Positions 3,227 to 12,919 of a DNA stretch of 14,179 nt are shown piece by piece. Source of the stretch: an uncultured Clostridia bacterium (GTDB lineage: Bacteria > Bacillota_I > Bacilli_A > RFN20 > CAG-288); contig OMRU01000005.1 of NCBI GenBank assembly GCA_900313465.1, positions 1-14,179 of the forward strand, given 5' to 3'. The position numbers and the translations under genes are program-made. The notes beneath the pieces were generated by a model. The model was not told where the DNA came from and searched no databases. It saw only the letters and a program-made list of their open reading frames with translations. How positions within the stretch are numbered: the first letter of the stretch is position 1; each line of letters starts with the position of its first letter.

Positions 3227-3716
3227 AATTTATTCCTCTCCCAGCTGCTCTAGTTGCCGTAAAGTCAAAGCCTGGTTCAATAAGGAGAAGATTCCTTATC
3301 GCGAAGTCAACATTCTCAAAGAGAAGTTGACCGAAGAAGACTTGAAAGAAATGTTAGAAAAATCCCTTGATGGTACGGATGAAATCATCTCTACCAGAAG
3401 CAAGATTTTCAAGGAACAGCATATCGATGTCGAATCGATGTCCATCAAAGCACTTCTTGCCTTCATTCAGGAAAATCCAAGCATTCTCAAGCGCCCTATC
3501 ATCGTCGATGATTCCAAGATTCAGGTCGGCTACAACTCCGATGAAATTGAAATCTTCGAACGTGAAAAACAAATCATCGCTGCTAAGCAGATCGCCAAAG
3601 AAAATTGTCAGAACTGTCCTGACAGAGAAAACTGCGTCCATCGCTTTGACGATACCAAAGCTGCCATCGAAAGAGAACTCTTAGAAAAAAGAGAACTTAA
3701 GGTCAAGATTAACTAA
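3219..3716 (+). CDS. spx: Spx-family redox regulator with Cys-rich C-terminal extension
   Basis: An ArsC-fold regulator that, in Bacillus, binds the RNA polymerase alpha C-terminal domain and redirects transcription under disulphide stress. The first ~115 residues match Spx closely: the redox switch CxxC (C10, C13 in SPSCSSCRK), DGTDEIISTRSK (51-62) and KRPIIVDD with R92 in the RPI motif. It is 165 residues long rather than ~131. The extra tail has a C-x2-C-x5-C cluster (C130, C133, C139) followed by a charged helix, which canonical Spx lacks. The start has AAGGA at 3203-3207, about 11 bases upstream, and the gene overlaps pgsA by 8 bases. A canonical Spx tail is targeted by ClpXP; whether the extension changes turnover is inference. 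Arsenate reductase is excluded by the CxxC and the Spx-specific motifs. Confidence 0.88.
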   Translation: MIKIYSSPSCSSCRKVKAWFNKEKIPYREVNILKEKLTEEDLKEMLEKSLDGTDEIISTRSKIFKEQHIDVESMSIKALLAFIQENPSILKRPIIVDDSKIQVGYNSDEIEIFEREKQIIAAKQIAKENCQNCPDRENCVHRFDDTKAAIERELLEKRELKVKIN

Positions 3717-8866: not shown

Positions 8867-10801
8867 TTACTGATTGTGAGTGGCAATAAATTCTAAAAAC
8901 TGAGGAACAGGTAAAGGCTTGGCATAGTAGAAACCCTGAATATATTCAACCCCCATCTTGATAACCTGCTCGGCTTTTTCCTTAGTCTCCACACCTTCGA
9001 CCAAGGTCGCCTTACGAATATCTCTCATCATGATGACAGAATGTTCCAAAACTGATAAGCCACTAGCATTATCAGCGGCATCGACCATACTCTTATCAAA
9101 CTTGATGATGGATAAAGGAAGACTTAACATTCTGGTGATGTTGGAATATCCCGTACCATAGTCATCTAATGATAACTGATAACCCATAGATCTTAGTTTC
9201 TCTAAATTGTAATGCAATAAGTCATGGTCTTGCGCATAGATAGATTCGGTGACTTCAAAGTTGATCTGGCTTGGTAAGACACCAAACTTTTCCTGTAGAC
9301 TTTCAATATGAGAAATCAAAGAAGGATCAATAGCTTGCTGAACCGAGAGATTGACCTCTACAAATTCGACACCAGACTTCTTGAACTCCTCGCTGCCCAC
9401 AAAGCGGAAGACATCCTCTAAGACAAATTCACCAATCGGCCCTAGCATGTTCTTCTTTTCAGCAGCTGGGATAAATAACCCAGGCATGATCATGCCATAT
9501 TCAGGGTCATTGAGTCGTATTAAGGCTTCAGCGCTACGGAACTTGCCAGCCTTGATATCATAAATTGGTTGGTAATACATTTCAAAGCGTTCATTCTTGA
9601 CGGCTTCAAGAAGAATCTCTTTAAGATTAGATTCGATGATATACATCTTCTGATGGATGATGTCTTTACCATAGCAGAAGAGTTCCTGATTTCCCATATA
9701 GCGATCAAAGGAATGACCAAGACGAAGAATCGTCTCAATGTCATTGCTTTCATTAGGAAGATTGATCTGACAGTTCTTTAATTGCAGATAAGCAGTAACA
9801 CTGCTATCCTTTGAACCCTGGCTGCGGAAATAGGAAATCATATCCATGGTGAAAGCATAACAATCGAAATCCTTATCCTCAATGAATACATAAAGATTAC
9901 CCGGTTCTTCAAAGAAGACATCGGAATAGATTTTTCTTCGTTTGCATTCCAAGATATATCGAGCAGCAATTTCACGAACAGAGTTGAGATAACTTTCTTC
10001 ACCATAGAATGTCTTGATATTTGAAACGTTCAGAATCTTGATCATGTGAAGAGAAAGTTTTTGCTTGGAAAGGATTACCTTTTTCAGTTCAAACTGATAA
10101 TCCTGATAGGAGCGAAGACCAGTCTTGCTATCAGATAATTCTTCTGGTCGAAGGACAAACAAGGCAATCAACAATAAGGATAGGGAAGTGATAAAGATTT
10201 CAATCTGCAGGGAAGGAACAAAATACTGAATGCCTACCGCAATAAAGGAAAAGACATAGACAGACTGTAGACAAACCCACTTACCAAAGCGAATAAAGCG
10301 AATGCATAAAAACATCAACACGATACCAGCAATACCATAAATAGCGGATAAAACATAAACAACATTCAACAATGGTTGTCTCTGATAGAGGTTGATTAAG
10401 TCGATGGAAAACACCATGTGATGGAATGGGTTAGACAATACAAGACCAAAAATAGAGACAATCGGCAAGGTGAAGACAATCTGAATCCATGTCTTCTTTA
10501 AAAGCCAATGCACTCTAAAGGCAAATAGCAAGAACACCAGATACAAGAATATCGTGGTATTTCGCATCAGGAAATAAAGAGTGGAAAGAAGATAAGAAAA
10601 GGTTAAGGCAATATTGTTATCAAATACTGTATGACGAAGTAAACCATTGCCGAAATCCAATAAGGCAACAGCCAAGGTGAAATAATTCATCACCAAAAAA
10701 TACAGGTTCGCTCTACCCTTAATCGTTTTGCGCACATATAAGGAAATGATGATAAGAATTTGAATCGGGATAGAACACCCTGTATAAATCAATTGCTGCA
10801 T
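8867..10801 (-). CDS. Membrane-bound EAL-domain c-di-GMP phosphodiesterase with degenerate GGDEF
   Basis: A 644-residue signalling enzyme predicted to hydrolyse cyclic di-GMP to pGpG at the inner face of the membrane. Residues 1-~220 form about seven hydrophobic helices (a 7TM-type sensor). Residues ~225-385 look like a GGDEF fold (SKTGLRSYQDYQ opening), but the catalytic loop reads FEEPGNLY, so no cyclase activity is expected. The EAL domain (~395-640) keeps the key residues: EAL 425-427 (E425), NLS motif, E516 and E519 in FEVTES, D546-D547 in LDDYGTGYS, K567, E602 and E605 in VEGVET, and Q622 in QGFYYAKP. The AAGGAA SD at 10813-10808 fixes the start. Its own extended -10 promoter lies upstream. 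It is monocistronic, ending at the shared terminator. The sensed signal is unknown. Confidence 0.92.
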   Translation of the reverse strand: MQQLIYTGCSIPIQILIIISLYVRKTIKGRANLYFLVMNYFTLAVALLDFGNGLLRHTVFDNNIALTFSYLLSTLYFLMRNTTIFLYLVFLLFAFRVHWLLKKTWIQIVFTLPIVSIFGLVLSNPFHHMVFSIDLINLYQRQPLLNVVYVLSAIYGIAGIVLMFLCIRFIRFGKWVCLQSVYVFSFIAVGIQYFVPSLQIEIFITSLSLLLIALFVLRPEELSDSKTGLRSYQDYQFELKKVILSKQKLSLHMIKILNVSNIKTFYGEESYLNSVREIAARYILECKRRKIYSDVFFEEPGNLYVFIEDKDFDCYAFTMDMISYFRSQGSKDSSVTAYLQLKNCQINLPNESNDIETILRLGHSFDRYMGNQELFCYGKDIIHQKMYIIESNLKEILLEAVKNERFEMYYQPIYDIKAGKFRSAEALIRLNDPEYGMIMPGLFIPAAEKKNMLGPIGEFVLEDVFRFVGSEEFKKSGVEFVEVNLSVQQAIDPSLISHIESLQEKFGVLPSQINFEVTESIYAQDHDLLHYNLEKLRSMGYQLSLDDYGTGYSNITRMLSLPLSIIKFDKSMVDAADNASGLSVLEHSVIMMRDIRKATLVEGVETKEKAEQVIKMGVEYIQGFYYAKPLPVPQFLEFIATHNQ

Positions 10802-10821
10802 ATAAATTCCTTACTGTTATT

Positions 10822-10830
10822 ATTCTATCA
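10822..10830 (-). promoter_or_regulatory. Extended -10 promoter of the EAL gene
   Basis: Minus-strand TGATAGAAT, with the -10 TAGAAT at 10827-10822 preceded by the TG of an extended -10. The -35 is weak: TTGTAC lies 19 bases upstream. The leader would be about 15-20 bases to the ATG. Confidence 0.5.
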
Positions 10831-10892
10831 TATTTCGGTATTTATTGTACAAGTGCATAATTACGCTGCGTACACACAAGTCATAAAATGTT

Positions 10893-10916
10893 AAAAACGC
10901 CCCGAAGGGCGTTTTT
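10893..10916 (-). terminator. Terminator of the ncRNA, with UUCG tetraloop
   Basis: A perfect 10-bp stem, AAAAACGCCC with GGGCGTTTTT. On the minus strand the loop is C(UUCG)G, an exceptionally stable tetraloop, followed by the T run. It ends the ncRNA and probably any read-through from the ABC genes before the EAL promoter. The A/T flanks could also let it act on the + strand. Confidence 0.9.
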
Positions 10917-11028
10917 GATTTTGTGGTACGACTGATAGCGGCAATGTTCTTAAAGCAATGGCTTGCGACAAAGAGAAGCCGGACTGAAGAAGCCTGTGGC
11001 TACAAGTCCTAGTATGCTATCAGTGGAA
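10893..11028 (-). ncRNA. Structured non-coding RNA of unassigned family (6S-like possibility)
   Basis: A ~136-nt minus-strand RNA gene candidate with no open frame, its own promoter and an intrinsic terminator. A 9-bp closing stem, ACTGATAGC (11024-11016) with GCTATCAGT (10939-10931), encloses two hairpins. The first is GGACT/AGTCC (11009-11005 with 10985-10981), with inner AGCC/GGCT. The second is GGCTT/AAGCC (10980-10976 with 10964-10960). A 20-base unpaired 3' strand (10959-10940) carries CATTGC-type sequence twice. An alternative fold pairs GGACTTG with CAAGCC into one long arm, leaving an asymmetric bubble as in 6S RNA. No SRP tetraloop motif, tmRNA or RNase P signature is seen. 6S is the leading guess at low confidence; the length is short for it. 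Confidence 0.65.
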
Positions 11029-11032
11029 CAAT

Positions 11033-11060
11033 ATTTTATCAAACTGAAAGAAAAATGCAA
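11033..11060 (-). promoter_or_regulatory. Promoter of the ncRNA
   Basis: On the minus strand, -35 TTGCAT (11060-11055), a 16-base spacer and -10 TAAAAT (11038-11033) preceded by TGA, an extended -10. The start site is expected near 11028. It lies just after the stop of the downstream ABC gene, so the RNA does not depend on that operon. Confidence 0.7.
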
Positions 11061-11074
11061 GCCCTTTCAAACAA

Positions 11075-12919
11075 TTATTCCATCACGGCATCAGATTCCA
11101 GATTGAACTGAGAATTGTAAAGCGAGGCATAAAAACCATTCTGTTTCATCAATTCATCATGATTGCCCTGTTCGATGATATTGCCATCTTTCATGACCAG
11201 AATGAGATCTGCATTCTTGATGGTGGAAAGACGGTGTGCGATGACAAAGCTAGTCTTGTTGGCAGTAAGTCTATCCATCGCTTCCTGAATCTTTTCTTCA
11301 GTTCTCGTATCTACGTTGGAGGTCGCTTCATCTAAGATCAGCATCGGTGATTTCTTGAGCATTGCTCTAGCGATAGTGATCAACTGTTTCTGACCACCAG
11401 AGATCGATCCACCATCCTTGATGACATAATTCAAACCGCCAGGAAGAGAACGAACAAAGTGCGTCAGATGAGCGTCATGGATGACATTCTTGATATCTTC
11501 ATCCGTAACATCAGGTGTGTTATAGATCAAGTTTTCTTTTAAGGTTCCATCAAAGATCCAGGTATCCTGTAAGACCATGGCAAACTGAGCATGAAGTTCT
11601 TCTCTCGTCATTTCCTTAACGGGAACACCATCGATCTTGATATCACCAGCATTGGTCTCGTAAAAACGCATCAGAAGATTGACCATAGTCGTCTTACCAG
11701 CACCAGTAGGACCGACGATTGCCACTTTCATGCCAGGCTTGATATCCGCAGAGAAATCGTGAATGATTTCTCTTGTGGAATCATAGGAGAACTTGATGTG
11801 ATCAAACTCAACTTTACCCTGTAATTCTTCATCTCCAAGAGGTGCAAAGTGTACTCTCTTATTTGTCTCGTCTTCTAATTCCTCGACTCCCAAGAAGCCA
11901 AAGACACGAGCGCCAGAAGCAGCTGCATTCTGCAAAGAGTTCATCGCCTGGGCAATCTGAGTGAGTGGAGACTGGAAGAGATTGACATACATCAAGAAGG
12001 CAGTGATGGTACCCATAGTGATACCAGGAGTTGAAGAAGAGAGAAGTAAACCGCCGACAACACAAACTGCAGCATAGGCAACATAAGACATATAGTTCAT
12101 CACCGGTTGCATCAAACCGCCGAAGAATTCTGCTTTGAACATCGTCTTTCTTAATTCATTGTTCTTCTTATCGAAGGTTGAGGTCATCTTATCTTCGGCG
12201 TTGAACACCTTGATGATCAACTGACCGTTGTAGTTTTCCTCGACAATGCCATCGACTTCACCGACCAACAATTGGCGTTTCATGAACTGTGGGCCAGCAA
12301 ACTTCAAGATGACCATCAGAAGAATCGCCATAATAGGAAGGGTAGCTAAGGCAACGAAGGCTAACTGCCAAGAAGTGATAAACATGGCAATAAGAGAGCC
12401 AACCAACATGAAGAGAGCGGAGACAAGCATGCTTAAAGACTGCTGGAAGGACTGAGAAATCTGATCGACATCATTAGTGAGAATAGAAAGGATATCACCC
12501 GTGGAATTCGTATCGAAATAATTTAACGGAACGACATTGATTTTCTCAGTGATCTGTTTTCTTAATGAATGTGTGTATCTCTGAGCCACAGTGGTCATGA
12601 TAAAGGAAGAGGTGAAATTAGAAAGAGCAGAGACAACATATAAGATGGCTAGAGTGGTACCAAAGCCACTGATTTTATCCATATCGATTGTTCTGGATTC
12701 AGCACCAGAAACGATCGTATTGGTCAAATCCTTAAGAATATTTGGTGCGATAACCGCAATGACAACATATCCGACAATGAAGAAAAAGGAAACAAAGATA
12801 GCTGGCCAATAACGTCTCATGGACTGGCCGATTTTGACTAAAGACTTATTCATCTCGCCTTTGGCCATCTTTTCATGGACACCCATACCACGAGGTCTTC
12901 TTGCTTTTTGTGCGCTCAT
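11075..12919 (-). CDS. ABC exporter, fused membrane-ATPase subunit with consensus ATP site
   Basis: One half of a probable heterodimeric (LmrCD/BmrCD/TM287-288-type) exporter for drugs, lipids or peptides; the substrate is unknown. It has 614 residues. A polar Arg/Lys-rich N-terminus (1-36) is followed by six predicted membrane helices (~37-330) and then the nucleotide-binding domain: Walker A GPTGAGKT (403-410), signature ISGGQ (506-510), Walker B LILDEATS with catalytic E531, D-loop D537 and switch His H562. These residues make a hydrolysis-competent site. The AAAGGAGG SD at 12937-12930 supports the start, and the ATG overlaps the upstream subunit's TGA (ATGA), so the pair is translationally coupled. 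No own terminator is obvious; transcripts may stop at the ncRNA terminator. Confidence 0.92.
   Translation of the reverse strand: MSAQKARRPRGMGVHEKMAKGEMNKSLVKIGQSMRRYWPAIFVSFFFIVGYVVIAVIAPNILKDLTNTIVSGAESRTIDMDKISGFGTTLAILYVVSALSNFTSSFIMTTVAQRYTHSLRKQITEKINVVPLNYFDTNSTGDILSILTNDVDQISQSFQQSLSMLVSALFMLVGSLIAMFITSWQLAFVALATLPIMAILLMVILKFAGPQFMKRQLLVGEVDGIVEENYNGQLIIKVFNAEDKMTSTFDKKNNELRKTMFKAEFFGGLMQPVMNYMSYVAYAAVCVVGGLLLSSSTPGITMGTITAFLMYVNLFQSPLTQIAQAMNSLQNAAASGARVFGFLGVEELEDETNKRVHFAPLGDEELQGKVEFDHIKFSYDSTREIIHDFSADIKPGMKVAIVGPTGAGKTTMVNLLMRFYETNAGDIKIDGVPVKEMTREELHAQFAMVLQDTWIFDGTLKENLIYNTPDVTDEDIKNVIHDAHLTHFVRSLPGGLNYVIKDGGSISGGQKQLITIARAMLKKSPMLILDEATSNVDTRTEEKIQEAMDRLTANKTSFVIAHRLSTIKNADLILVMKDGNIIEQGNHDELMKQNGFYASLYNSQFNLESDAVME

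Follow-up and report, generated by a model that had tools for sequence, protein, structure and literature searches.

The minus strand of the window (the whole stretch of DNA analysed, 14,179 nucleotides) very probably carries a real RNA gene from about 11029 to 10893, and the best account of it that we can offer, held with about even confidence, is an independently transcribed, trans-acting small RNA of ~136 nt that matches no Rfam family and belongs to one clade of a Bacilli genus. That the gene encodes a structured RNA beyond the catalogued families is supported by its presence in three genomes and the lack of Rfam hits, and since no catalogued family matches and few close relatives carry it, a new and narrowly distributed regulatory RNA is probable.

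Read on the minus strand from 11060 to 10893, the source genome (G000) presents a -35-like hexamer TTGCAT, a 16-nt spacer, an extended -10 element (TGATAAAAT), a 92-nt core whose ends are closed by CUGAUAGC/GCUAUCAG, and a terminator (Table 1), with the start of the RNA predicted at about 11029-11026. The extended -10, the 9-bp closing stem and the UUCG-loop terminator of the original prediction are all there in the sequence, and promoter-like element, closing stem and terminator are present in all three carriers (G000, G007 and G002). The -35-like hexamer is TTGCAT in G000, TTGCAA in the aligned G007 and TTGACA ahead of the G002 copy; TTGCAT shares 3 of 6 letters with the consensus, which lies under the limit of our promoter scan, hence its absence from the scan list. 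The promoter that the scan did list beside the RNA (TTGATA/TAGCAT, 11042-11014) is not the one originally predicted and its start would fall within the RNA, and promoter-like sites in the region are at chance level (2 versus 1.8 expected from shuffles). The case for a promoter is therefore built on the recurrence of the promoter-like element in three genomes and not on the scan. Terminator-like sites numbered 2 versus 0.2 expected in a simple scan, and the G007 and G002 terminators occupy the same position as that of G000 with unlike sequences; the three terminators, changed in sequence yet with their stems kept, give, as we read them, the plainest indication that structure is under selection. 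The RNA-promoter sequence TTTGATAAAATATTGTTC also recurs closely ahead of another gene (L002 68-96, contig C269 of G000), with no RNA core after it.

Table 1. Features of the predicted RNA gene and its surroundings (positions in the window)
Feature	Position	Strand	Basis
Predicted small RNA, about 136 nt including terminator	10893..11029	-	Fold, homologues, conservation
-35-like hexamer TTGCAT, 16-nt spacer	11055..11060	-	Sequence; hexamers of relatives
Extended -10, TGA-TAAAAT (TGATAAAAT)	11033..11041	-	Sequence; G007 TGATACAAT, G002 TATACT
P1 closing stem, 5' arm ACUGAUAGC	11016..11024	-	Folds, pair counts
P1 closing stem, 3' arm GCUAUCAGU	10931..10939	-	Folds, pair counts
P2 arm: GGACU/AGUCC, asymmetric internal loop, apical GCC/GGC hairpin	10981..11009	-	Alignment, pairing
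P3 arm: GGC/GCC base, variable inner stem	10940..10980	-	Alignment, folds
Conserved segment AUUGCUUUAA within P3, candidate pairing site	10950..10959	-	AUUGCUUU invariant in 3 genomes
Pyrimidine-rich UUCUCUUUG, candidate anti-Shine-Dalgarno segment (weak)	10969..10977	-	Complementarity to CAAGGAGAA
Intrinsic terminator: 10-bp stem, UUCG loop, U tail	10893..10916	-	Terminator scan
Promoter-like element of the EAL gene, extended -10 TGATAGAAT	10822..10830	-	Promoter scan

The stretch had also been called non-coding, which agrees with our check of the RNA's minus strand (ATG, GTG or TTG starts, at least 8 aa): no reading frame is common to all three carriers. A small-peptide reading was rejected, as the sole frame shared by G000 and G007 starts with a TTG inside the RNA, stays open into the unlike terminators (26 and 28 aa) and is missing from G002, whose copy holds different frames of at most 36 aa. 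By sequence, then, each of the three genomes has a non-coding gene with a predicted promoter and terminator of its own, as expected of a stand-alone small RNA.

The predicted fold of G000 is more stable than dinucleotide shuffles with the terminator included (z -5.3, 0/200 as good), with the terminator excluded (z -3.3, 1/200) and for the 92-nt core (z -3.0, 0/200), and the G002 core by itself is slightly more stable than its shuffles (z -1.6, 11/200). The structure is a three-way junction of P1, P2 and P3 with zero unpaired bases at the P2/P3 and P3/P1 joints, and G007 and G002, folded separately, give P1, P2 and the P3 base as in G000. P3 is one long arm in G000 and G002, and the inner pairs of G000 and G007 differ from those of G002. 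Two inner hairpins had been proposed, of which the first is present and the second (GGCUU/AAGCC) is broken in G007 and G002 and missing from the minimum-energy fold of G000, where the region forms a longer arm closed by GGC/GCC; a repeated CATTGC fared likewise, its first copy being kept as ATTGC in the relatives and its second not. The proposed alternative arm GGACTTG/CAAGCC is broken by the changes in G007, its 3' side could not be located in G002, and energetically it falls short of the best core fold by 7 kcal/mol in G000 and by 12 in G007. Because this arm is not conserved, the suggestion that the RNA is a switch finds no support.

Core identity between G000 and G007 is 104/108, versus 569 of 1010 identical fourfold-degenerate sites across eight genes of the neighbourhood (feoB is highest at 67% and the EAL gene, whose proteins are 68% identical, lowest at 38%), and thus constraint on the RNA is strong. 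The G000 and G002 cores are identical at 67 of 92 aligned positions, versus 108/280 fourfold sites in three genes, the G002 alignment having been fitted to the covariance model and so biased towards agreement. The best-conserved parts are P1 and P2. Seven of the 9 P1 pairs are invariant across the three genomes, one is retained via a one-sided change and one is broken in G002; the P2 outer stem is paired in all three, with one G-C changed to G-U, and G007 and G002 each lose one pair of the P2 apical stem. P3 is variable save AUUGCUUU, which is identical in the three genomes. In a three-sequence count, 92% of cells were paired, versus 21-51% with a slid partner, and 22 of 500 shuffles equalled this. 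Comparison of aligned relatives for compensatory changes, as originally advised, gave core covariation that was not above controls in these three carriers, of which G000 and G007 are near copies: one pair has two-sided changes, equalled by 174/500 shuffles, and sliding the partner by +1 yields 2 two-sided pairs and a covariation score higher than that of the real pairing. As the single two-sided change is matched by controls, the fold is consistent with the alignment and not proved by covariation.

The uneven conservation inside the closing stem bears on how the RNA might work. It could act mainly by binding a protein through the conserved P2, as a sponge or scaffold with the logic of 6S RNA without being 6S, and this alternative, unlikely as we judge it, gains from the contrast between P2 (25/29 aligned bases identical in G000 and G002) and P3 (24/41) and from the near-invariance of P1. 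We recognised, however, no known protein-binding motif by eye, and three sequences cannot part structural from sequence constraint. A stand-alone RNA acting in trans on mRNAs is the reading that we prefer.

The RNA was found in 3 of the 15 genus genomes: besides G000, a DNA search of these 15 genomes located the copy of G007, and a covariance model made from the G000 and G007 copies located that of G002, directly after the same ABC-exporter gene. On record, G007 is an uncultured Erysipelotrichaceae bacterium (RUG11704) and G002 a Bacilli bacterium from a roe-deer omasum (RGIG4442). Two models, R1 and R2, run over the family (23 genomes), the order (279) and a class sample (395), yielded no additional credible copies in the 279 order and 395 class genomes. 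Model R1 matched 3/279 order genomes at E 0.1, missing G002 under stricter filters and recovering it in another run; one match (G163), with 23.8 bits the equal of the G002 score, was dropped since most of P3 is missing and it is not in the R2 list. Model R2 matched 8/23 family genomes at E 1, and, with their alignments inspected, we dropped G012, G009, G003, G001 and G019 as weak (E 0.03 to 0.9). R2 further matched 12/279 order genomes at E 0.05, nine of which were dropped (best E 1.3e-4), and 12/395 in the class sample, eleven of which were dropped (best E 8.6e-5). Fifteen of 17 dropped loci that we checked for frames lie inside stop-to-stop frames of at least 110 residues, and the two with no such frame, L118 and L120, were dropped solely for poor alignment (10 of 18 alignments covered). 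Phage and plasmid collections gave zero matches at E 1e-5. A DNA pattern hit 20 loci in a genome-contig collection, 2 of them the G002 and G007 copies themselves and the other 18, from other groups (two Paenibacillus, Bacteroidota, Proteobacteria and others), rejected with a best model score of 14.4 bits (E 0.26); its 4 loci in viral contigs reached E 5 at best and were likewise discarded. By sequence match, all carriers among the genomes searched belong to a single clade of a Bacilli genus.

In a tree of the ABC protein, covering 14 of the 15 genus genomes (G008 gave no match), the three carriers fall in one supported clade of five together with G006 and G004. Presence of the RNA requires two changes on this tree, and one change in 2% of 200 bootstrap trees; the supported branches force only one, the branching within the five-member clade being unresolved, so that the ABC tree does not separate a single gain plus losses from two gains. 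The RNA is dispensable in the clade, as G006 has the ABC-dtxR junction without it.

The gene order in G000 is ABC1-ABC2-RNA-EAL on the minus strand, followed by convergent dtxR and by the nifU and feo genes (Pfam assignments for six G000 proteins). G007 has RNA-EAL-dtxR-nifU-feo on one contig and the ABC genes at the end of another, G002 has ABC-RNA-convergent dtxR with no EAL match on that stretch of contig, and in G006 both RNA and EAL are missing from between ABC and dtxR. These four orders tie the RNA to the ABC-dtxR junction. The two G007 contig ends (L033 about 3357-3374, L101 about 144-161) share the same 18-bp inverted terminus, each beside the 9-bp AATTGAAAG, the pattern that an insertion element duplicating 9 bp of its target would produce; such an element seems to separate the ABC gene from the RNA promoter there. 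In the neighbouring segment 4796-8829 of the window, Pfam identifies a DtxR-type regulator, a NifU-domain protein, FeoA and FeoB, and by eye there is another FeoA-like frame; TAGTTAAATATAACTA ahead of feoA and GTTAGTTGCGTCTAAC ahead of dtxR resemble palindromic operators. Iron control of the RNA by the neighbouring DtxR was rejected, because comparison by eye with the feo and dtxR upstream regions found no similar palindrome at the RNA promoter.

This arrangement raises the question of whether the RNA is simply the 3' UTR belonging to the ABC-exporter operon: a tail, stabilising or processed, that supplies the operon with its terminator. In G000 and G002 the RNA does directly follow the ABC-exporter gene and shares its strand, with no other terminator between the two (G000 by scan, G002 by eye), and the RNA-less G006 has a plain terminator-like hairpin in its ABC-dtxR gap (by eye). 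Yet all three carriers have a promoter-like element ahead of the RNA and an insertion-like junction parts it from the ABC gene in G007, and we consider a 3' UTR rather improbable. The RNA appears independent of its neighbours, since in G002 it sits between ABC and a convergent dtxR and the G007 junction cuts the ABC gene off immediately upstream of the RNA promoter. A more novel possibility strikes us as improbable: a new class of structured regulatory RNA whose conserved P2 would bind a protein or ligand, the RNA coupling the ABC exporter with the DtxR/Feo iron genes and, in two species, with the adjacent c-di-GMP phosphodiesterase.

It is distinctly improbable, too, that the RNA serves the EAL phosphodiesterase gene as a cis-acting leader or riboswitch controlling terminator read-through, even though a three-way junction and terminator stand about 90 bases ahead of that gene in both G000 and G007. 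The main ground is that a convergent gene (dtxR) follows the RNA in G002, so that it is not upstream of EAL in every carrier; moreover, both EAL-bearing genomes have an EAL promoter-like element of their own past the terminator (its stretch GAAATATGATAGAATA also occurs ahead of the G007 EAL gene), the single alternative fold tested is broken in G007 and G002, and no Rfam riboswitch matched. Going by the gene orders, the EAL gene is an extra in two species.

The claim that the RNA lies outside the common families holds in a covariance search with 4227 Rfam families, none of which exceeded its cut-off in the window. Up to E 10, 13 hits fell in 10800-11130 (best E 0.11), most of which, 10 in number, overlap the terminator; neither 6S RNA (RF00013) nor the GEMM c-di-GMP riboswitch models were among the matches up to this E at the locus. 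The G007 and G002 copies gave zero Rfam hits up to E 1, and ARAGORN found zero tRNAs and zero tmRNAs in the window. A 6S-like bubble, the other fold originally entertained, finds no support, given the predicted three-way junction in three genomes, none of which shows a rod with closing stem, central bubble and terminal stem, the missing RF00013 hit and the separate 6S-like loci. Elsewhere in the family, RF00013 gave hits up to E 10 in 12/23 genomes, none over the gathering cut-off (4 were over it in 14 control genomes). One lies in G002 (E 2e-5) and, weakly, one in G007 (E 0.013), the latter resembling the former by eye, flank included; in a rerun at E 0.01, the G002 and G006 loci passed and the G007 locus failed. 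The weakest of the family's 6S-like loci (L066-L075) may not be real, and no 6S was found in the 75%-complete assembly of G000. The RNA and a 6S thus appear to coexist in G002, and probably in G007. Some Firmicutes have two 6S RNAs. That the RNA is a second, diverged 6S, as its stand-alone promoter and terminator, its long closing stem and such Firmicutes pairs might suggest, is very improbable given its three-way junction in place of a rod with central bubble, the failure of RF00013 to match up to E 10 and the separate 6S-like loci in G002 and, weakly, G007.

In the trans-acting small RNA that we favour, the RNA would be transcribed from its own promoter, end at its own terminator and fold as a three-way junction with a P1 closing stem, a P2 arm with conserved internal loop and a variable P3. 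Its weakly paired P3 segments, namely AUUGCUUU and the preceding pyrimidine-rich stretch, may then base-pair in trans with mRNAs, with P1 and P2 possibly serving as scaffold or protein-binding part. This guess comes from the stand-alone anatomy and not from a target. By hand, UUCUCUUUG is complementary to CAAGGAGAA with one G-U, which allows pairing to strong ribosome-binding sites, and CAAGGAGAA occurs 3-9 bases ahead of an ATG 8, 11 and 8 times in G000, G007 and G002, versus 1, 3 and 3 for its reversal used as control. Such a site is common to three G000/G007 orthologue pairs and none extends to G002, where the UUCUCUUUG segment differs; the CAAGGAGAA sites may be ordinary ribosome-binding sites only. 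The AUUGCUUUAA segment (in G000 and G007) and the UUCUCUUUG segment are partly paired in the predicted folds. Duplex energies were computed for ten starts in the window and for eight starts in each of G000 and G007, and none of the eight is prominent in the two genomes alike: feoA2 had 7/200 shuffles as low in G000 and 142/200 in G007, HMA 13/200 and 45/200, and tetR 24/200 and 28/200 (HMA and tetR being names read from translations).

The RNA adds a well-bounded, uncatalogued gene family, ordinary in kind, to a little-studied Bacilli group in which the conservation of this gene exceeds that of silent sites in the neighbouring genes, and it leaves general understanding unchanged as long as no target is shown. 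In the parts available to us, PMC6429828, PMC8040213 and PMC11109978 do not describe this RNA, which may still be in print. The last of these ('The discovery of novel noncoding RNAs in 50 bacterial genomes') reports, in the part available, the ykoW motif (WRC-65-2) of Thioalkalivibrio, a three-stem junction with few representatives upstream of an EAL-domain gene, whose P1 overlaps the Shine-Dalgarno sequence and which may be a cis regulator. From this partial description, the likeness to our three-stem junction ahead of an EAL gene is superficial and concerns a distant group, whereas here a terminator and a second promoter-like element part the RNA from EAL and G002 has no EAL gene there. With 6S RNA, the RNA has in common an independent gene with a long closing stem, but it forms a three-way junction that the RF00013 model leaves unmatched. 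As with GEMM riboswitches, it stands ahead of a c-di-GMP turnover gene in two genomes, but it has no Rfam match up to E 10 and the G002 copy does not precede such a gene. Stand-alone intergenic small RNAs of Firmicutes have their own promoter and terminator, measure about 100-200 nt, and combine a structured 5' part and a pyrimidine-rich stretch with a narrow distribution. Although the RNA described here falls outside all 4227 Rfam families, it shares with these small RNAs the size range, the signals of its own, the structured 5' part, the narrow distribution and the pyrimidine-rich stretch.
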